20,185 nucleotides of DNA from a virus, in the IMG/VR virus record IMGVR_UViG_3300037584_000634, positions 1 through 20,185 of that record; one strand, given 5' to 3'. Of the stretch, positions 1-11,400 are shown piece after piece. Made by a program: the position numbers and the translations under genes. Under the pieces are notes generated by a model. It saw nothing but the letters and a program-made list of their open reading frames with translations. It was not told the origin of the DNA and did no database searches. How positions within the stretch are numbered: the stretch's first letter is position 1; every line of letters starts with the position of its first letter.

Positions 1-129
1 TATAATGGCCCCTGAACCCAGTTTCTTTAAATCAGGATCACGTGTTTCTAAGTCAATTGCAATCTCATCCGCTTTTCTTAGATCAGGAAATTCTGTAGGT
101 GCTACCCATTCTGTAGTCGGCATTAACAT
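1..129 (-). CDS. DNA polymerase (PolA-type), N-terminal part with 3'-5' exonuclease, cut by window edge
   Basis: Only the first 43 codons are in the window; the gene continues past position 1. Residues 23-28 read IAIDLE followed by TRDPDL, which matches the Exo I motif (hhDhE) of DnaQ-like 3'-5' exonuclease domains. Asp26 and Glu28 would be the metal ligands. In phages this motif this close to the N-terminus, as in 'AIDLETRDP', is typical of family A DNA polymerases with a proofreading domain. A free-standing exonuclease cannot be excluded from this fragment. The first ATG overlaps the TAA of the DUF3310 gene as TAATG; a second in-frame ATG lies two codons later at 123. No separate ribosome binding site is obvious, so translation is probably coupled to the upstream gene. 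It is the last visible gene of the replication module, which fits a replicative polymerase. Confidence 0.75.
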   Translation of the reverse strand, partial: MLMPTTEWVAPTEFPDLRKADEIAIDLETRDPDLKKLGSGAII

Positions 130-377
130 TATTTTTTACCTTTTGTATCTTTCAGTTTTTTAATTTCTAATTCACAGTAATGAATTACTTTTTCTAAATC
201 TTGTATGCCATTTTTATTCATGTAACGACACACATACTTTATAACGTTTCCCTGAAAAAAGGAAAGGTCGTTCTTAGAAATGAATTCATAGGGTTGAATG
301 TGAAAGTCTTTATAGTGACTCCCCCCTATCTGCTTATCTTGTGGAAATGCTTTATCAAACATATCTTTATTGCTCAT
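129..377 (-). CDS. DUF3310 family protein (T7 gp1.7-like)
   Basis: This 82-aa protein carries the DUF3310 signature: GGSHY at residues 18-22, then IQPYEFI, then GNVIKYVCRY at 43-52, followed by KNGIQDLEKVIHYCELEI and a lysine-rich tail. DUF3310 includes phage T7 gp1.7, described as a nucleotide kinase linked to dTMP metabolism; whether this short member has that activity is inference. The ATG is preceded by a strong Shine-Dalgarno, GGAGGT, about 7 bases upstream, which fixes the start. Its stop codon shares one base with the start of the DNA polymerase gene, and its start overlaps the stop of a 26-aa candidate gene as ATGA. The placement directly before a DNA polymerase supports a role in nucleotide supply or replication. 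Confidence 0.85.
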   Translation of the reverse strand: MSNKDMFDKAFPQDKQIGGSHYKDFHIQPYEFISKNDLSFFQGNVIKYVCRYMNKNGIQDLEKVIHYCELEIKKLKDTKGKK

Positions 378-456: not shown

Positions 457-618
457 TTATCCTTTTGTTGTAGCAGTTATTGATTTGGTGATGAGTAAGA
501 TTGGGAGTCGAGAAACCAAATCAATTTTATACGACGCTGCTTTACCGCCGCTGAGTATAGTCTCTATCCCGTTCTGTTTATACTTATTGTATAATCTAGT
601 TAAAGTGTTTGTATTCAT
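457..618 (-). CDS. Candidate 53-aa small protein, unknown function
   Basis: A 53-codon frame beginning MNTNTLTRLYNKYKQNGIET and ending ITATTKG. It starts 23 bases inside the 3' end of the UvrD-like helicase gene and ends two bases before the 26-aa candidate, filling what would otherwise be an empty 220-base gap in a packed operon. The first half is basic and helical in appearance; 'YNKYKQNGIETIL' faintly resembles the first helices of IS630-type helix-turn-helix proteins, but this is weak. The second half holds a hydrophobic stretch, LPILLI. Against it: no good ribosome binding site next to the ATG, several codons rare in this AT-rich genome (CTC, ATC, ACC, GCG, TCG), and an 11-bp inverted repeat inside it. 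The segment could instead act as a structured RNA. Confidence 0.45.
   Translation of the reverse strand: MNTNTLTRLYNKYKQNGIETILSGGKAASYKIDLVSRLPILLITKSITATTKG
479..525. repeat. 11-bp perfect inverted repeat, 25-base loop
   Basis: Arms ATTGATTTGGT (479-489) and ACCAAATCAAT (515-525) are exact reverse complements, separated by 25 bases. The enclosed sequence and the bases out to about 575 are clearly more GC-rich than the surrounding genome. No T-run follows on either strand, so this is not a standard intrinsic terminator. It lies inside the 53-aa candidate gene and just downstream of the helicase gene, where an RNA structure could affect processing or stability of the replication transcript. 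Confidence 0.6.
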
Positions 619-2032
619 TCTTTTTTGTTTTACCTTTTAATTTATATAAATTATTTCTTGCACGTGTTGCTCCTACGTACCAAACTCTATGTTCTTCATC
701 ATTCTTTTCATCACTTTTCTTAACTGATTTCTTTATTGTTCTTCCTAAATCTAAACATAAAATAACATTATCTTCTTCACCACCTTTAGCTGCATGAATT
801 GTAGAAGCATATATACGAGCATCTTCATCTAAATTTTCACCATTTATAAGCATTTCCTTAATGTATATTCTGTCTGATAATTTAGTTTGTTCAAACGCTT
901 CAAACCAATCTACATTATTGTTCCATTTTTCTTTAGGTAAACCAATAAATTCTGCTATCTGTTTGATTTCTTTTTCTTCTATTTCTATTCCTCTGCACCA
1001 TGAATTATAATTTACAGATGCATTATATAATCTTACAGGAAAACTTTTACCTTTGTTACTTTGATAATATAAATTTCTTTTTCTTAACTCTTCAATAATT
1101 TGTAATAATCTATGTGTTGTTCTAGTTAATATTAAATATCTATTTTTTGTTAGATCTATTTGATCTAAGTTGTTTATTCTTAAAGACTCACCTTGATAGT
1201 TTCTTGGATAATAAATTTTTTTTTTTCTTAAACCTTTAATTCTTTCTAATGGTAATTCAGATTCTTCTTGAACTGCTTTAGATACTCTTTTAGAATATTT
1301 TAAAACTTTTTCTTTTCCAGGTTCTTCAATAAATCTATCTACATCTGCACCTGCCCACGCAAAAATAGCTTGATCATCATCTCCTGCTAAATACATATCT
1401 TCTGTATTTTCTTTTAATTTATCAAATAATTTCCATTGCAATGGAGATAAATCTTGAGCTTCATCTATAAATATAGTTTTAAATTTTGGTAAGTCAGGTT
1501 TATTAATTAATTTTTCAATCATGTCATTAAAATCTAATTTACCTGTAATTCTCTTATATTCTTTTAAATTTTTATCTAAATTATCTAATATATACCATTC
1601 TATCTCTTTTTTATTATGTTCACTTCTATCGTATTCTTCTCTTATATCGATGTCTCTATTTATTGCTCTACCAATCATTTTAAAATATGGACTATCAATG
1701 TTTAAATAAAAAATTTCTTCTTGATTATATTTATCGTAATGTTTAACTTTTATATTTAATTCTTTTCCTATCTTAACATAATCGTCTGGTTGCATAACCA
1801 TAGAGTCATTTAATTCTAATTGTTGAAAAGCAAAAGAATGAAGTGTTCTAAAGTAATTTAAATTATCATTTTCTACAGGCATTCTTTCTTTAGCAACCTT
1901 AGCTGCCTTTTTAGTAAAAGCAAAGTAACCTATTCTATCTAATGGAGTTCCTACTCTAATGTATGCTTTAGCTCTACTAATTAGCTTATGTGTTTTACCT
2001 GTTCCTGGAGGACCAAAGTATTTATATATCAT
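596..2032 (-). CDS. UvrD/Rep-like superfamily 1 DNA helicase
   Basis: This 478-aa protein has a complete set of SF1A helicase motifs. Walker A is GPPGTGKT at residues 7-14; motif Ia lies around FAFTKKAAK at 37-45, with TLHSF at 63-67. The Walker B/motif II is FIDEAQD at 188-194, and motif III is AGDDDQAIFAWAGA at 216-229. Motif V is IHAAKG near 412-417 and motif VI is YVGATRA at 452-458. All catalytic residues are present, so it should be an active ATP-driven helicase, probably 3'-5' as in UvrD/Rep; the polarity is inference. It is shorter than cellular UvrD (about 720 aa), consistent with reduced 1B/2B inserts as in compact phage enzymes. The start overlaps the primase stop as TAATG. The gene contains an A11 tract (1216-1226) encoding part of a Lys run. 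Confidence 0.9.
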   Translation of the reverse strand: MIYKYFGPPGTGKTHKLISRAKAYIRVGTPLDRIGYFAFTKKAAKVAKERMPVENDNLNYFRTLHSFAFQQLELNDSMVMQPDDYVKIGKELNIKVKHYDKYNQEEIFYLNIDSPYFKMIGRAINRDIDIREEYDRSEHNKKEIEWYILDNLDKNLKEYKRITGKLDFNDMIEKLINKPDLPKFKTIFIDEAQDLSPLQWKLFDKLKENTEDMYLAGDDDQAIFAWAGADVDRFIEEPGKEKVLKYSKRVSKAVQEESELPLERIKGLRKKKIYYPRNYQGESLRINNLDQIDLTKNRYLILTRTTHRLLQIIEELRKRNLYYQSNKGKSFPVRLYNASVNYNSWCRGIEIEEKEIKQIAEFIGLPKEKWNNNVDWFEAFEQTKLSDRIYIKEMLINGENLDEDARIYASTIHAAKGGEEDNVILCLDLGRTIKKSVKKSDEKNDEEHRVWYVGATRARNNLYKLKGKTKKNEYKHFN

Positions 2033-3696
2033 TATACAATTTCTTCTGGTTTTTTAAACTCAGCTAATTCAACTATGTCAGCATCGTCTTCATCTTTTTT
2101 AAATAAATACAATGGTATAACTGCACAACCATTTACACCTGGATAAGGTTTATCTGTTTTTTTATCTTTACCAGGAAATCTTTTCTTTTTACCAAACTGT
2201 GGTTTAGGCATATGATCTTTTTCTTTTTCAAACATTTTTTCAATCATATAAGAAGTTCTAGAAGAATCTTTTTTCCATTCATTGTCTTTTAAATCATTAA
2301 AAAATTCATCGTACACAAAGTAAGCATAAGTATCATCTTTTAATACATTACCACTTTTAAAAGAGTTATGACTTGTAGCTTCTGTACTATGTATATAATC
2401 TTTTAAATGTTTCTTTAGTATCTCCATAGGTGTGGTCCCTGGAGCCGGTTGCACTGTATCAATGGTCGAGAATAATGCTTTTTGTATTTCAAAGAAGTCC
2501 ATTCCTTTTATAGGTGGAGGTGGAAAATCTGCTTGAGCCATTATCAAACCTCTTAATTCTTGTTGATCTTTTATTTTATTTACATCTTTTGCATGTACTT
2601 GAACTGTTTCTCCATCTTCTCTTTCTACTGTAAAATAGTATTCAGGGTCAGGTTTAAAATCTACTTTGATTAAGTTAGTCATCAATGGCCAATTAATTTT
2701 TTTATCTGAAATAATTCCAAACTTTCTTTTTACACATTCTGATTTAATACATACTGGTGCCAGTAAATCATCATGACAAGTATGTCCTTTTTCTTGTTTC
2801 TCCCAACTTTTTATTTTCTTTTCAATATAATTATCAGTCCATATTTGATCAAATTCAAAATAATTTCTACCTGCTTTTAAAACCATCTTACCCCAATTGT
2901 CGGGATATTTTTTCTTAGCCATAACCATGTAGTTGTATAAAAATCTGTCTCTACCATCTTTCATTTTGTTTTTAGATAAAATTTCTAAACATGGTGGACC
3001 ATCTTTAAATTCTTCTGCACCACCTGTTAATTCTTTTCTAATTAAATCATTAGATATGTTTTCTAATTTTTCGATATCAGCTTTATTTATTTCTACAACT
3101 TTTAAAAATAAATCTAATGGTATTTCTTTACCAGAAGGATCTAATGCTACTCTTTCACTTTTATTAAAGTAAGGTAGATTTATAAAATTACCGTTGACTT
3201 TATTACCATTTGTATCACTTCCTAGTTTAGTTTGCTTAGGAAATATTTCTGTTGTTATTGGTAGTTTAAATAAAAATAATACTTGTTCTAAAAAATCTCT
3301 GATAATTTTAGCTTTAACAAATTCTTTAGTAAATAAATATAAATGAAGTCCATTACTTTTTGATTTAATTGGTATTAGTGGTAATTCTTTTTCTTGAATA
3401 ATATCTAGATATTTTTTTATATCTAGGTCTTTATACACTTTAGGATCAATATCTATTGCACCAAAACATGCTAAACCATTATCATCACAAGGTTGAATAC
3501 CTATAGATTTTTTTCCATGTAAGTGAAGTCTGTAATCATCTTCAGTAATTGGTTTACCTGACCAACCATAATCACCTGCATTAAATTTTATCTTACCTGT
3601 GCTAGGATCTTTATATCCATTGTTTATATTACAAAAACCAAAATTACGTTGTAACCCCGTAAAACATTTTATAAAATCATTCATCTTTATATCCAT
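2032..3696 (-). CDS. Archaeo-eukaryotic-type DNA primase (AEP/TOTE-like) with Cys cluster
   Basis: This 554-aa protein looks like a primase-polymerase of the AEP superfamily. It has the DxD metal motif (GAIDID, Asp82 and Asp84) and the sxH-type motif SKSNGLHLYLF at 112-122, with His118. These resemble the primase domain seen in TOTE systems and related phage proteins. A following helical region has the PriCT-like pattern 'PPCLEIL', then 'KDGRDRFLYNYMVMA', and a Cys arrangement C236, C307, C316, C321 followed by RKFGI, likely a zinc or Fe-S site. Residues from about 340 on are not recognised and end in an acidic tail. The gene lies between the 259-aa gene and the UvrD-like helicase. The start is uncertain: M1 has no ribosome binding site, while M5 has a GGA about 7 bases upstream. 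Confidence 0.8.
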   Translation of the reverse strand: MDIKMNDFIKCFTGLQRNFGFCNINNGYKDPSTGKIKFNAGDYGWSGKPITEDDYRLHLHGKKSIGIQPCDDNGLACFGAIDIDPKVYKDLDIKKYLDIIQEKELPLIPIKSKSNGLHLYLFTKEFVKAKIIRDFLEQVLFLFKLPITTEIFPKQTKLGSDTNGNKVNGNFINLPYFNKSERVALDPSGKEIPLDLFLKVVEINKADIEKLENISNDLIRKELTGGAEEFKDGPPCLEILSKNKMKDGRDRFLYNYMVMAKKKYPDNWGKMVLKAGRNYFEFDQIWTDNYIEKKIKSWEKQEKGHTCHDDLLAPVCIKSECVKRKFGIISDKKINWPLMTNLIKVDFKPDPEYYFTVEREDGETVQVHAKDVNKIKDQQELRGLIMAQADFPPPPIKGMDFFEIQKALFSTIDTVQPAPGTTPMEILKKHLKDYIHSTEATSHNSFKSGNVLKDDTYAYFVYDEFFNDLKDNEWKKDSSRTSYMIEKMFEKEKDHMPKPQFGKKKRFPGKDKKTDKPYPGVNGCAVIPLYLFKKDEDDADIVELAEFKKPEEIV

Positions 3697-3750: not shown

Positions 3751-3765
3751 ATTCACTTAGTGAAT
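3751..3765. repeat. 15-base palindrome right after the 259-aa gene
   Basis: ATTCACT (3751-3757), one central base, then AGTGAAT (3759-3765): two perfect 7-base arms. The outer edge touches the stop codon of the 259-aa gene. The core TCACT...AGTGA is the same as in the operator-like repeat at 5168-5185, but the spacing is one base here against four there. It may be a protein binding site, part of a read-through control structure with the hairpin at 3711-3738, or coincidence. Confidence 0.45.
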
Positions 3766-4544
3766 TATATAATATCTTCAGTTTTTGGTTTATCGCTTTT
3801 CTCATATTCAGGTTTAGCACTACCTTTAGACACAGATTTTTGAAACTCCTGTGCCATTAAATATAAGTCCGCATCTTCTTTTTTAGATACGTCTAAAGCT
3901 CTATTCATAGATGGTTTATAAACATGCCAACTTTTACTTCCTGCAACTTTACCAACAGTTTTTAAATTATATACTGCTGCATAAGCTGCTGGGTTGTAAA
4001 CACCTTTGTCATCTTTAAATCTAAGATTTTTAATCAACTGATTTAATTCTCTTGCAGGTGTTAAGTTAGATGATCTCATGGTAATTACTGCAGGTCTAGG
4101 TTCATCACCTAAAACTATTACATAAAAGTATGCAGTTTTTTCTAAGTAGTTACCATTGGTCAGTCTATACTTACCGTTTCTTTCTTCAACAGCATCACTT
4201 GGTACAGTTAAATGTGTTGCAACAGGTGGAGCCGCTGTGTCTCCCATTTCCTGCCATTCTGGAAACCTTGTTTGCACATGTGCAACAAGTAAGTCTACAC
4301 CTTGATTACCATCTATTAATGTACCTAAACCTTTTGCATAAATCATACCAGGTTTAGAACCTTCTACGTATTTAGCATTAGCTTGATTACATTCAGGTGA
4401 TAACTGATGTAGGATTTTTAAAATCGGTGTTGACATATCGTCCGATTTTATTTCTTCACTACCTCTTCCAGAGTCTCCTCTTAGATTGATAGTAGATAAT
4501 GCACCTGCATTATCTTTCTTAGTCATAGCATTTGTATTTGCCAT
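3765..4544 (-). CDS. Phage protein of the replication module, unknown function (possible ssDNA-binding role)
   Basis: This 259-aa protein opens with a polar, low-complexity stretch (about residues 1-35). A central region follows, with 'STPILKILHQLSPE', 'KYVEGSKPGMIYAKGLG' and 'FPEWQEMG', then a beta-rich part and an acidic, lysine-rich tail ending KTEDII. Proteins of this layout are frequent in marine and podovirus-like phages and usually carry no name. A disordered acidic C-terminus and a place between a coiled-coil protein and a primase are what one expects of a single-stranded-DNA-binding protein, but no OB-fold signature could be confirmed, so that role is inference. The start is secure: the ATG at 4544 follows AAGGAGATATAACT, one of the best ribosome binding sites in the window, suggesting high expression. 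Confidence 0.75.
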   Translation of the reverse strand: MANTNAMTKKDNAGALSTINLRGDSGRGSEEIKSDDMSTPILKILHQLSPECNQANAKYVEGSKPGMIYAKGLGTLIDGNQGVDLLVAHVQTRFPEWQEMGDTAAPPVATHLTVPSDAVEERNGKYRLTNGNYLEKTAYFYVIVLGDEPRPAVITMRSSNLTPARELNQLIKNLRFKDDKGVYNPAAYAAVYNLKTVGKVAGSKSWHVYKPSMNRALDVSKKEDADLYLMAQEFQKSVSKGSAKPEYEKSDKPKTEDII

Positions 4545-4572: not shown

Positions 4573-5121
4573 TTATTTTTTATTTTTTAAATACGTTTGA
4601 TTTCCATCAAATGTATTGAATAGTTCTTCCGGAACTTCTTGACCTTTGTCTTTCCATTCCTTCATAACTACTTTGAGTGTCGATGGGTGAACTTTCTCCT
4701 CTTGGATAGGTTCATACCCATTCGACCTCGCAAGGCCAGCGTAATCGACAGCCTTGTTATCTTCGCCTTGACCAAATGATACAGTAATATTATTTTTTAC
4801 TATATCACCTAAGCCATTGTCTCGAAGCCAGTGTATCGCCTCAGCTTTTTTGTCAGCTTTCATTGAGGCACTATAAATTTTTTTAACAGTTAACTCTGAA
4901 CCATCTTTTAATTTTAAACTAGCAAGGTTCATGTCTTCCATTAATTTTGGAATTATATTACAGCTAAAGTATTTTTCATCTTCTTTAAGATCTTTAACTC
5001 TATCTTCCAAATCTTTTATTTGTTGTTGTATGGATTGTAACTTTTCAACTTCAGTTGAAAGTTTATCTGGATCAACGTTATTAGATTGATCAGGTGCATC
5101 TTTACGCATATCTATAATCAT
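4573..5121 (-). CDS. Conserved phage coiled-coil protein, unknown function
   Basis: A 182-aa protein. Residues about 17-55 form a clear coiled coil (VEKLQSIQQQIKDLEDRVKDL and onward). A compact domain follows, with 'IPKLMEDMNLASLKLKDGS', 'IHWLRDNGLGDIVKNNITV' and a C-terminal part 'STLKVVMKEWKDKGQEVPEE'. This arrangement resembles an unnamed family common in podo- and myovirus-like phages next to single-strand-binding and recombination genes. The ATG at 5121 is preceded by TTTAGGAGAAAATAT, a good ribosome binding site. It is the first full gene behind the strong promoter at 5163-5191, so it is probably transcribed early and leads the replication operon. The start overlaps the stop of a 12-codon leader frame as ATGA. 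Its codon use is slightly less AT-biased than that of its neighbours. Confidence 0.75.
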   Translation of the reverse strand: MIIDMRKDAPDQSNNVDPDKLSTEVEKLQSIQQQIKDLEDRVKDLKEDEKYFSCNIIPKLMEDMNLASLKLKDGSELTVKKIYSASMKADKKAEAIHWLRDNGLGDIVKNNITVSFGQGEDNKAVDYAGLARSNGYEPIQEEKVHPSTLKVVMKEWKDKGQEVPEELFNTFDGNQTYLKNKK

Positions 5122-5156
5122 ATATTTTCTCCTAAATTTAACTTTTTAACTTTCAT
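5118..5156 (-). CDS. Candidate 12-aa leader peptide MKVKKLNLGENI
   Basis: The frame starts at ATG 5156-5154, about 7 bases after the -10 box of the minus-strand promoter, so the transcript would begin at or almost at this AUG (leaderless). It stops with TGA overlapping the ATG of the 182-aa gene (ATGA). Its own 3' half contains the ribosome binding site of that gene (GGAGAA). It shares the pattern M-K-x-x-K-L-N with the 9-codon frame at 5528-5557. Such a short frame could arise by chance; the position and shared pattern are the argument for it. Confidence 0.35.
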   Translation of the reverse strand: MKVKKLNLGENI

Positions 5157-5162
5157 GGCCTT

Positions 5163-5191
5163 AGTATAATCACTGATAAGTGATTTGTCAA
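5163..5191 (-). promoter_or_regulatory. Sigma70-like promoter of the replication operon
   Basis: On the minus strand: TTGACA (5191-5186), a spacer of exactly 17 bases, then TATACT (5168-5163). The -35 box matches consensus fully and the -10 box in five of six bases. The start of transcription is expected near 5157-5155. It lies directly behind the stop of the 113-aa gene and points at the 182-aa gene, primase, helicase, DUF3310 and polymerase. It implies recognition by the host RNA polymerase. Confidence 0.8.
5168..5185. promoter_or_regulatory. Operator-like inverted repeat in the promoter spacer
   Basis: AATCACT (5168-5174), four bases, then AGTGATT (5179-5185): perfect 7-base arms with two-fold symmetry, filling the -35/-10 spacer. 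A dimeric repressor bound here would block RNA polymerase. No obvious repressor gene is in the window, so the binding protein would be encoded elsewhere in the phage or by the host. Confidence 0.6.
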
Positions 5192-5193
5192 GT

Positions 5194-5535
5194 TTACTTT
5201 TGATGAATATTTATTTCTATTGGGTAGTAAGTTTTTTCTTGTCTATCCCATTTAAGAAGTTTAAATTTTCCATTAGTCATTTCTGAAGCAATTGCACAAG
5301 TTACTCCAATAATAGCAGGATCACCATTCAATAGTAAATAATCATTTTCTGTAAAATCTTTTAATTTTTGTCTAATACTAAATATAAAAGGTCCAGGTGA
5401 AAACATTATTTGTTCTAATGCTTTAAACATTATTTTAATTTCACCATATTTTCTTGCACCCGTAATATTATATTTAGGTTGTCCTGTAAATTTATCTATA
5501 GGGATATCTTGTAGTAAGTATACGTTACTATTCAT
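5194..5535 (-). CDS. Conserved hypothetical phage protein (113 aa)
   Basis: The protein begins MNSNVYLLQDIPIDKFTGQP. Its C-terminal half contains 'LLLNGDPAIIGVTCAIASEM' followed by 'GKFKLLKWDRQEKTYYPIEI', a pattern seen in unnamed small proteins of marine phages. It is predicted to be soluble and mixed alpha/beta; no catalytic motif is visible. It is divergent to the SNF2 gene, with 82 bases between the two starts. The ATG at 5535 has no ribosome binding site of its own; the nearest good one (AAAGGAAG) serves a 9-codon frame that ends over this start codon, so translation may depend on coupling. It ends two bases before the replication promoter, so it forms a separate, earlier or weaker unit. 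Confidence 0.65.
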   Translation of the reverse strand: MNSNVYLLQDIPIDKFTGQPKYNITGARKYGEIKIMFKALEQIMFSPGPFIFSIRQKLKDFTENDYLLLNGDPAIIGVTCAIASEMTNGKFKLLKWDRQEKTYYPIEINIHQK

Positions 5536-5617: not shown

Positions 5618-7051
5618 ATGAATTATAAATTTAAGACTAAGCCGTATGAACATCAATTAGATGCATTAAAAGCATCTTGGGATAAAGAAAATTTTGCGTA
5701 CTTCATGGAAATGGGTACTGGTAAATCAAAGGTATTATTAGATAATGCCGCAATGTTATATGATAAAGGCCAGATAAATGGCCTCCTTCTTATTGCACCT
5801 AAAGGTGTATATAAGAACTGGTATGATCAGGAGGTGCCAGTTCATCTTCCTGATCATATTCAAAAGAAAATGGTTTTATGGAAATCATCAGATAAATCAA
5901 AAAAACAAAAACAAATATTAAATACTTTATTTGAACCAGGTGTAGATTTTCATATTTTAATTATGAATGTTGAAGCTTTTTCTTCTGGAGATGGTGCAGC
6001 TTTTGCATATAAATTTTTATCATGTCATAAATCAATGATTGCAATTGATGAGTCCACTACAATTAAAACTCCAACATCTAATAGAACTAAAAATATTTTA
6101 GCATTAAGAAATCATTGTAAGTATAGAAGAATATTAACAGGTTCACCGGTAACTAAATCACCATTAGATTTGTTTTCTCAATGTGCCTTTCTTGATCCTT
6201 GGCTCCTGGGACATGATTCTTATTGGACGTTTCGTTCTCGTTATGCGAAAATGAGAAAGATAGAAGTTAATGGTAGAAGGGTAGAAATAGTTACGGGATA
6301 CATGAACCTTGGTGAACTATCAGATAAAATAAAACCATTCTCTAAAAGAATATTAAAAGAAGATTGTTTAGATTTGCCAGAAAAAACTTATGTCAAGCAT
6401 TATGTTGAGTTAACTGCAGAGCAAAAGAAAGTATATACACAAATGAAAAGAGAAGCAATTGCTTTTTTAGATGGCAAAATGCAATCTTCAGTAACTGTTA
6501 TGACTCAATTAATGAGACTACATCAAATTACTTGTGGACATTTTACTGCTGATGATGGTACCATAAAAGATTTACCTTGTAGTAGGCTTGGTGAATTAAT
6601 GAACATACTTGAAAATGTAGAGGGTAAAACTATTATATGGTCTCACTATACACATGATGTAAAAAGAATTATCACTGAAATAAAAAAAGTGTATGGAGAA
6701 GATTCTGTTGTAGATTATTTTGGTGAAACTGACACTGATGCAAGATCAGCTAATATTAAAAAATTTCAAAACGATGATAACTGTAGATTTTTCGTAGGAA
6801 CCACTCATACAGGTGGTTATGGTATTACATTAACTGCAGGTAGTAATATGATTTATTTTTCAAATGGTTATGACCTTGAAAAACGTCAACAATCAGAAGC
6901 ACGTATTGATCGTATAGGTCAAACTAAAAAAATGACTTACATTGATATAATGACCCAAGATACTATTGATGAAAGAATTGTAAAAGCTCTTCGTAATAAA
7001 GTTGATATTGCAAATACAATTATGGATGAAGATTTTAGAGAATGGATATAG
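5618..7051 (+). CDS. SNF2-family (superfamily 2) DNA helicase/translocase
   Basis: This 477-aa protein has the SNF2 order of motifs. Walker A is EMGTGKS at residues 31-37, followed by motif Ia (LLIAPKGVYKNW at 57-68). Motif II is DEST at 144-147 (more often DEAH or DESH), and motif III is LTGSP at 173-177 followed by 'LFSQ'. In the C-terminal RecA-like lobe there is 'GGYGITLTAG' at 399-408, and the SNF2 motif VI is QQSEARIDRIGQ at 424-435. It is an ATP-driven double-strand DNA translocase by family; phage members may act in replication-fork remodelling or recombination. It is the only convincing plus-strand gene in the window, with its own promoter at 5558-5586. The ribosome binding site is poor (only an A/G-rich stretch before ATG). 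A 9-bp hairpin starts two bases after the stop. Confidence 0.9.
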   Translation: MNYKFKTKPYEHQLDALKASWDKENFAYFMEMGTGKSKVLLDNAAMLYDKGQINGLLLIAPKGVYKNWYDQEVPVHLPDHIQKKMVLWKSSDKSKKQKQILNTLFEPGVDFHILIMNVEAFSSGDGAAFAYKFLSCHKSMIAIDESTTIKTPTSNRTKNILALRNHCKYRRILTGSPVTKSPLDLFSQCAFLDPWLLGHDSYWTFRSRYAKMRKIEVNGRRVEIVTGYMNLGELSDKIKPFSKRILKEDCLDLPEKTYVKHYVELTAEQKKVYTQMKREAIAFLDGKMQSSVTVMTQLMRLHQITCGHFTADDGTIKDLPCSRLGELMNILENVEGKTIIWSHYTHDVKRIITEIKKVYGEDSVVDYFGETDTDARSANIKKFQNDDNCRFFVGTTHTGGYGITLTAGSNMIYFSNGYDLEKRQQSEARIDRIGQTKKMTYIDIMTQDTIDERIVKALRNKVDIANTIMDEDFREWI

Positions 7052-7052
7052 C

Positions 7053-7074
7053 GATTATAGTCCCCACTATAATC
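7053..7074. terminator. Hairpin between convergent SNF2 and virion operons
   Basis: GATTATAGT, loop CCCC, ACTATAATC: a perfect 9-bp stem with a 4-base loop beginning two bases after the SNF2 stop codon. Because it is symmetric, it forms in transcripts from both strands where the plus-strand SNF2 unit meets the minus-strand virion unit. Neither side has a T-run, so it is not a textbook intrinsic terminator. A second, weak stem (GGCA...TGCC) follows at 7081-7094. Confidence 0.6.
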
Positions 7075-7110: not shown

Positions 7111-7308
7111 CTACAGTTTTTCAAATAGTATAACGATGATAGTAAACATACCTGCTACTAAAGCAGTCATTGCATAACGCATATGATTTTTAATTTCTTT
7201 AATATCGTTTTCTATTCCTGAAATTTTTTGATGAGTTTGTTTTTGCATGATACGACAAAGCTTTTCATGTGATTCTATTTTCTCTAATGCTAGATCTTTT
7301 TTAGCCAT
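7111..7308 (-). CDS. Holin-like small membrane protein (XhlA-like layout)
   Basis: A 65-aa protein. Residues 1-42 are charged and helical with a heptad pattern (IESHEKLCRIM, then ISGIENDIKEIKNHM). One hydrophobic segment at 44-62 (YAMTALVAGMFTIIVILF) is followed by a short charged end. This coiled-coil plus C-terminal membrane anchor is the layout of XhlA/hemolysin-type proteins that accompany phage lysis genes, so a holin or holin-accessory role is reasonable but inferred; no endolysin is seen next to it. It is the last gene of the virion operon and starts inside the stop of the 387-aa gene (TAATG). A small membrane-anchored virion protein is the alternative. Confidence 0.65.
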   Translation of the reverse strand: MAKKDLALEKIESHEKLCRIMQKQTHQKISGIENDIKEIKNHMRYAMTALVAGMFTIIVILFEKL

Positions 7309-8471: not shown

Positions 8472-11400
8472 TACGCTAATCCTCTTTGTCTAAGACGTAT
8501 TTGTTGTTCCTCAGGTGATAATAAAGCAAGTTCTGTTGGTGTCAAGCCTTGAGATGTAACATTGGACCCTGGACCCTGAATCTGTGATGTTTGTAGTATT
8601 TGTTGATTTGGCATTGGTGGTTGTCCAATATTTCCTAAACCAAGACTTTCTGCAATACCAGGTCCTTCTTCTAAGTAATCAGTTAAATCTAAATCAAATG
8701 TTTCTCCTAAATCTAAACCTTTTAAATCTCTATTCATTTCTCTTAAAGTAGGTTTAATTTCTTTAAATACATCTACGTCCCCTAGATCTCTTGCAATTTC
8801 TTTAAATCTATCTTCAATATCTTTTGATGGAAAGTATGGTTCAAAACTACCATCTTTTAATTTTCTAAAAGAATCATCACTTAATTGTCTTTCTTTAAAT
8901 GTTCTTCTTAATGCATTATCTTCAACACCTAATATATTTGCTGAATTTAAATTTCTATACATTTCTTTTTGTACATTAAATCTTGCTTGGTTTGATACAA
9001 AGAACCTTTCAATAATATCATTAGCTTTAATTGGTCCACCTCTTAATAGTCCAAAGTAACCACCAGTAAATTCTCTTCTAGCATTCCTAATACCTGTTTG
9101 GTATTCAGCAATTTTAAAACCCATACTTTCTAATGGATCAATTTTAATTGCTCTAAATCCCATTAGTCCACCTAGTTCAGGACCAATTTCTAATTCATCT
9201 CCTCTTTTAGTTGGAGTTCCAAATGCTGCTTGACCTATTCTTTGATATTGTTTGTAAGAAGGTGCAAGTGCTTCTCCTAAATGTAAAAATTGAATTGATA
9301 GTTTATCTCCAAAAGGTGTTTCATCTGTATATAATAATCTACCTTCATTAGTTCTACCGTTTCTAACTACAATGTCAGTCATGGCTTCTGTCCAAATAGA
9401 TTCAGAAATAAATGGATTCATAATTTCTCCACTAGCTTCTATTATACCATCTCTAAAACCTCTTAATAAAACATCGTCTGATTCTTGTGCTCTTAAAACA
9501 TTATTTAATAATGTTCTGAAAGGTCTACCAATTACATCATAAACATTACTGTGACTAAAATCTATATATCTTAATGTTCCATCATCATCTCTCATTGGAA
9601 GTAGTGTAGAGTTTTTTGACCATTCAGGAACAAACTGTCTTAATGCTGACATCTCATCTTCAGTTACATCGTACAATGCTTTCATTCCTTCAGTTAATCC
9701 AATTGGAACTGCAGTTAATGCAGTAGTCATACCAGCAATTCTTTTCATACCTGTTGCATACATTGGGTTATCATTTTTAACAAAAGCATTTGCTTCAATA
9801 TCAAATACCATTGGACCAATGTTACTTCCTCTTGTTGGTCTTGAGTGTCTTAACTCAGATAAAGCTTGTTTACCAATACCGGCAGTTGTTCTAATCATTT
9901 CAGATGGAAACGACATAAAGTTACCAATAGGTAATACTCTTGATGTTTTAACTGCTGATCCAACGTAAGCATAATTAGGTACAGTGTTTTTAACAATGTC
10001 AGCTGCTTTTTGTTTTAATTCTAATTCAACTGCATCATCTAATGTAGAATCTAAATCAGCTCTTTTAATATTTAATTGTTTTGCTCTACCTATTTTTAAT
10101 CTTTCTAACTCAGTTAAAAAGTTTGTAATTTTAAATGCATCATCCTCGGCTACATATTTACCTTGTAAAAAAGAACCTACCTTTTTCATCTTTTTAAAGA
10201 ATGATTTTAATATAGTATCAGGTGATACAAATTGATCTCCACTTTGAATTACATCTTTAAACAAAGCAGTTAAGTCTCCAATTTGTACCTGTGAATTTAC
10301 TACACCAAGTTCTAATAGTTCTTGATATAGTTTTTGCATTTCAGGACTCTTAGGTCCAAGTTTAAATACACCCGATCCTTTGAAACCTTTAACAGCATTT
10401 TTAAAAAATGTAGGTTCAGCTATTGTACCATTTGCAACTGTAAACATACCAGCACTAATTAAGTTACGTAAGTGAGTTGGTATAGATAAAATAGTTTTTG
10501 CCATTTGTGATGCTGCTTTTGGGGCAAGCAATAAAGTTCTATATAAATATGTTGCAGCAGATTCAGCAGATGATGCTGCTTCTCTACCTCTTATTGCACC
10601 TGCTAAACCTCTTGGTACATCATTTGCATGTAGCATTCCTTCTGCTATTTCCTTTGAAGTCCAACTATTTAATATTTCATTATCCACATACTGAATACCG
10701 GGCAATCTATTTTCTTTTAAATAATCACCTACTTTAACTACTTGTATTCCTGTTTCATTTGATCTCACACCTTGTTTAGCTAAAGCTTCATCAGTCCAAA
10801 AAGCTCCTCTTTCTCCAGCGGCTTGAAGTTTTTTATTATTTTCAGCTATGTTTTCAAAAAAAGATGATGTTCTTGCAGCAGATGATAAATTAGTCATTGC
10901 ATTAAAAATTGAATATCTTGGATCTTTTATTTCTCCAAATAACTCTCTTATAACTTTAGAACCTTTACCACCTGTTTTCTTTAACATCTCTTCAAATGAT
11001 TTTGTTTTAATTCCTTGAGCTGTTTTATCAGTGTAATTTAAATCAGGTAATTGTCCTGGTTTTTTTCTAGCTTGTTGTCCTTGTTCTAAAATATCATCAA
11101 CCATATATTTTGCTTGTTGATAATAATCAGTTGTACCTTCTAAATCTAAACCTGTATCTTTAGGTCTATTAGGATCTGTTTTAGCTAAGTATCTTCTAAA
11201 TAAAGCTATTGAATTGTTATATGCTTGTTCTGTTGGTTTATATCTTTGAAATGCTTTAAAGAATCTTGATCTTGGTTCAAACGCTCTATACGTACTACCT
11301 ACCCAACCTTGTATTCTTCCTTTTAAAAGTTCTTGTAATTCTTCTAAACCTGGTTTTAAATTTTTTTTATCTTTTATATTATTATCTAAATAACCAACTA

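Follow-up and report, generated by a model that had tools for sequence, protein, structure and literature searches.

A putative operator of lineage-specific sequence within a replication promoter of HTVC023P-type pelagiphages

The DNA analysed here (20,185 bases, referred to below as the window) comes from an HTVC027P/HTVC023P-type pelagiphage, a marine SAR11 phage, of whose genome it is a ~20-kb fragment. The named phages closest to it are pelagiphage HTVC027P, phage 023Pt_psg01 and HTVC023P. A promoter of the host-sigma-70 type stands at the head of its leftward replication operon and contains an inverted repeat (dyad) in the spacer between the -35 and -10 hexamers. On the sequence comparisons given below, there is about an even chance that this dyad is an operator of lineage-specific specificity, to which a putative protein would bind. 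The original prediction had proposed a repressor operator at this place; in the amended form that is now best supported, the operator sequence would turn over between relatives while its symmetry stays.

On the minus strand the promoter reads 5191-TTGACA AATCACTTATCAGTGAT TATACT-5163, with the -35 hexamer at 5186..5191, the -10 hexamer at 5163..5168 and a spacer of 17 nt, within the 16-18 nt that separate the hexamers of sigma-70 promoters. The site matches the consensus at 11 of 12 positions and is one of three such sites in the 20 kb. The window holds 94 promoter-like sites, compared with 100.7 +/- 9.9 in shuffled sequence, so the consensus match alone is no proof of a promoter; conservation does count as evidence. 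Another 11/12 site, TTGACA-16-TATTAT (8545..8518, minus strand), was rejected as a promoter: it codes for the conserved peptide LTPTELAL and reappears in relatives as coding sequence.

The promoter is located between a 113-aa gene of the Pam3_gp32 family (5194..5535), whose stop codon precedes the -35 hexamer by 2 nt, and a 182-aa gene (4573..5121; Pfam DUF7307, Pam3 gp33-like), the first of the putatively controlled operon. A 259-aa gene of the Pam3_Gp34 family (3765..4544), a 554-aa primase (2032..3696; AEP-TOTE / phrog_21866) and a 478-aa helicase (596..2032) follow, all of these genes being on the minus strand. The syntenic gene of the helicase in HTVC027P is annotated as 'ATP-dependent DNA helicase'. 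The claim that the promoter heads the replication module is supported: a conserved promoter stands at the head of this leftward operon. Transcription is predicted to start at the A at 5156, the first base of a 12-codon mini-ORF, MKVKKLNLGENI (5118..5156, minus strand), which would be leaderless and ends in a TGA that shares bases with the ATG of the 182-aa gene. Farther along the window, a 9-bp inverted repeat, GATTATAGT-CCCC-ACTATAATC (7053-7074), separates a convergent helicase (5618..7051, plus strand) and 65-aa gene (7111..7308, minus strand) and is likely a terminator.

Loci consisting of the 182-aa and 113-aa genes with their surroundings were gathered from viral contigs. The promoter was found at the same place in 149 related loci, with a nearly invariant TTGACA (rarely TTGACT), 16-18 nt, and then a -10-like hexamer (TATAAT/TATTAT/TATTTA-like). 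The loci are of two classes. In class I, which includes the window, [A/G]TGAAAG is located 6-7 nt past the -10 hexamer and opens a mini-ORF of 7-19 codons (MKVKK...), which in many cases runs into the start of the 182-aa gene. Of 35 distinct leaders with the motif, 34 have it at this distance and only that of the distant HTVC023P does not; the predicted start near 5156 fits the conserved motif, with which it coincides. Class II, which includes HTVC027P, has a different leader and a spacer without a dyad.

The dyad of the window, AATCACT-TATC-AGTGATT (5168..5185), is a perfect 7-4-7 repeat as originally described. Its half-sites are about one helical turn apart and its final T doubles as the first T of the -10 hexamer. 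Shuffling of the spacer gave a chance of P 0.007-0.020 for such a dyad (two loop variants). The window contains a single perfect copy and one more match with 3 mismatches, 2.3 matches being expected by chance. The exact string of TTGACA plus dyad occurs in 7 viral contigs, all of the window lineage, and the five exact matches to the dyad in viral contigs beyond the lineage stand in unrelated contexts. The further copies of the 18-base site that had been proposed as a search target were seen in none of the contigs checked: a scan of 14 contigs, one of ~60 kb, for further copies of each phage's own dyad gave none beyond chance. Upstream of the 113-aa gene, the divergent promoter was found to have no second dyad.

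The original prediction made much depend on whether the palindrome is kept in related phages. The exact 18-mer is not, being confined to the window's own close lineage; the symmetry is, with letters changed in pairs. At the same place, other class I lineages carry the dyads AATTACT-4-AGTAATT, AAACACT-4-AGTGTTT, AATAGCT-4-AGCTATT, AATAGTT-4-AACTATT, AATTGCTT-2-AAGCAATT, AAGATC-5-GATCTT and AAGACC-5-GGTCTT. The L033 and L082 lineages have AATTGCTT arms in common. The majority of such dyads are centred mid-spacer. Some are displaced over the -35 hexamer (AAACTTGA-4-TCAAGTTT) or over the -10 hexamer, and a number of class I lineages, the K and P types among them, have kept the promoter and have no convincing dyad.

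Fourteen class I sequences, picked for a common 17-nt spacer and a central dyad, were aligned. In this set 95.9% of cells are paired, a percentage that leans towards structure because the sequences were chosen for shared spacer and dyad; the 19 two-sided changes are the stronger part of the evidence. G-U is absent from all 98 cells. Pairing was 29-63% when the partner was slid and 78.6% when shuffled, and covariation was 0.515 compared with 0.177, no shuffle reaching the observed value. Nine near-neighbour contrasts showed changes at 6 of 126 arm positions (4 of the changes in symmetric pairs) and at 9 of 36 loop positions, so the arm letters are held, with a drift of the arms about five times slower than that of the loops. 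A single symmetric pair (C>T with G>A) sets locus L085 apart from the window's group, the arms and loop of these sisters being otherwise identical, and in trees of the flanking genes it falls within or beside that group. The trees also suggest a movement of spacer types between lineages, with the types following the 113-aa gene more closely than the 182-aa gene. With its paired changes, slow arms and lack of G-U the dyad behaves as a selected DNA symmetry, which upholds the operator-like character originally proposed; the 18-base sequence as such is not what is kept.

Under the operator reading, the host-sigma-70-type promoter would drive the leftward replication operon from ~5156, and a dimeric DNA-binding protein would occupy the two half-sites, lying about one turn apart. 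Once bound, the protein would lie over the spacer and obstruct RNA polymerase, so that the replication genes would be off or delayed. Since close relatives differ in operator and the binder's specificity must differ accordingly, the binder would be encoded by the phage, as in heteroimmune phage groups. Several observations count against this reading. No covarying binder was found among the candidates, and the dyad is single-copy, whereas repressors often have several sites. Some class I lineages have no convincing dyad or a shifted one, class II has none, and a cultured relative is said to be lytic.

The paired changes would also be given by an RNA stem. Read-through RNA from the 113-aa gene could form a stem that terminates, attenuates or protects the transcript, the symmetry being kept for the stem. 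In class I phages the dyad comes shortly after the stop codon that ends the 113-aa gene, as the inverted repeat of an intrinsic terminator or 3' stem-loop would, and the AAAATAAGTTGACAACTTATTTT of L052-type phages, with more T after it, is terminator-like. Unlike an intrinsic terminator, the dyad of the window forms a weak, AT-rich stem (-5.8 kcal/mol) with no U-run and no G-U, is flanked by conserved promoter boxes, and is absent from the listings of the terminator scans, and the clear hairpins elsewhere in these phages (e.g. 3' of the capsid gene) are GC-rich. The holding of the arm letters also argues against a stem. A true RNA fold found in these phages allows a comparison: a conserved structured RNA of ~140 nt (467-609, minus strand), between the helicase (596..2032) and an 82-aa gene (129..377). 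Across the sequences of 24 relatives, 26 cells of its helices are G-U and 44 are two-sided; the promoter dyad has 0 and 19, respectively. Fisher's test gives P ~0.001 when cells are counted, although cells are not independent of one another, and 0.04 when variable pairs are counted. The -35-centred dyad type has one G-T pairing (L057). As G-U is absent from the promoter dyad and plentiful in the RNA fold, the comparison favours reading the site as double-stranded DNA rather than as an RNA stem, and the hairpin explanation is considered unlikely. The RNA at 467-609 has an apparent pseudoknot, GGGA/TCCC and GAGA/TCTC crossing GTGGCAG/CTGCCAC, and the paired changes among the 24 relatives support its helices. 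It has no Rfam match at the gathering threshold and no tRNA was found in it; Rfam gave no match anywhere in the window. An ORF at the same place (MNTN...) shifts frame between relatives.

The dyad might instead serve the initiation of replication as a single-copy hairpin or cruciform and overlap the promoter only secondarily. That there is one copy per contig, beside primase and helicase genes, with symmetry kept and sequence changing, agrees with such a structure. It is quite improbable all the same, as most of the dyads hold a fixed position in the spacer and both the class II relatives and the K-type class I phages have no dyad; short AT-rich arms are, moreover, unlikely to extrude. A similarly low probability is given to the dyads having no function, as inverted repeats of an AT-rich spacer made symmetric through template switching. 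Short dyads are common in AT-rich sequence, and some class I spacer types are without a good one. A score as high as that of the window's dyad (7 or more) is reached, however, by 0.35% of AT-matched 19-nt stretches and yet recurs in many spacer types here, and comparable dyads were found neither in the promoter of the ribbon-helix-helix gene nor in the divergent promoter of the same phages.

A host regulator was offered as a possible binder in the original prediction. A SAR11 transcription factor on the dyad would tie phage replication to the state of the host, as CtrA does in other alphaproteobacterial phages, and host control of lytic alphaproteobacterial phages is documented (PMC9437464). 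The phages with CtrA-controlled 'lytic deferment' resemble those studied here in having a regulated promoter (putative in the present case) and in being phages of Alphaproteobacteria without lysogeny (PMC9437464). In contrast to the CtrA motif, TTAA-N7-TTAA (PMC9437464), which the dyad, read directly, does not match, the site is not constant between phages. A host protein is unlikely as the binder because the sequence of the site turns over between close relatives, sometimes near sisters, and the exact string of promoter plus dyad had 0 matches across 84,980 species genomes.

The operator reading can be set beside known systems. The tet and lambdoid operators are examples of operators placed between the -35 and -10 hexamers of a sigma-70 promoter. 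They have in common with the present site a symmetric sequence of ~18 bp in the spacer that is expected to exclude RNA polymerase; unlike in those operators, the letters here change in matched pairs between close relatives and the promoter boxes are constant. Lambdoid immunity groups form a heteroimmune repressor/operator system. Another is known from the Cluster A mycobacteriophages L5/Bxb1 (PMC6550527). As in these systems, an early promoter here contains a repressor site (putative in this case) whose sequence differs among related phages. The dyad at the promoter is under selection, and both half-sites differ together between related phages. In the heteroimmune phages the differences between sites track repressor specificity. 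Several sites per genome are usual there, if not universal, unlike the single copy here (one site per contig, 14 contigs); the repressor gene is postulated, and the cultured relative is said to be obligately lytic.

According to published work, HTVC027P is an obligately lytic phage that has no lysogeny genes and relies on the host RNA polymerase throughout (PMC12753301). Temperate or pseudolysogenic behaviour, at which the original prediction hinted, finds no support. None of the early genes of HTVC027P has a known function, and HTVC023P-type phages reportedly account for ~7.6% of the reads in ocean viromes (PMC12753301). If a changing operator does control the replication promoter, it would offer a concrete handle on transcription control in these phages. 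It would predict a repressor and raise the question of why a lytic phage should have lineage-specific repression.

The genome represented by the window is incomplete. Three candidates for the binding protein were examined. Scans of the early genes of a 60-kb class I phage with Pfam and PHROGs gave no known repressor. The 113-aa neighbour, whose versions travel with the promoter type, is disfavoured as the repressor: proteins beside different dyads are up to 95% identical, and the predicted fold has no known DNA-binding motif. Its AlphaFold model (pLDDT 89) has a weak SAVED/CARF-like fold and, in the PDB, matches SAVED, CARF and ring-nuclease domains best (E 0.03-0.1); judging from the model, this Pam3_gp32-family protein may possibly bind cyclic nucleotides.

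A ribbon-helix-helix-like gene ~12 kb downstream is likewise disfavoured, its strand residues being constant across dyad types. The assignment is one of sequence pattern only, as no family was matched and the monomer was modelled with low confidence (pLDDT 70). The promoter of this gene carries a conserved element, ATATAATWATCCTATAT, common to class II replication promoters. Overlapping the ribbon-helix-helix-like gene is a hypervariable gene that looks like a helix-turn-helix gene, the kind of gene which the original prediction had recommended to search for. It is disfavoured as the binder by a near-constant putative recognition helix across dyad types: phages G004 and G036, of different dyad types, have versions that are 82% identical, with nearly the same helix. 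The ribbon-helix-helix-like gene is a conserved gene of 54 aa, and the HTH-looking gene overlapping it has the motif LWRNVL. This pair was located at L150:11641-12082, L152:7977-8502 and L161:13422-13863, and at 80 further loci (L182-L261).

A 60-kb class I phage (G003) carries an array of small genes at L152:16400-18800. Five of the array genes are preceded by another dyad, ACARTGGC-N8-GCCAYTGT, followed by a TGYTAATAT-like sequence. Three exact ATGGC...GCCAT matches were counted, where 0.04 are expected.
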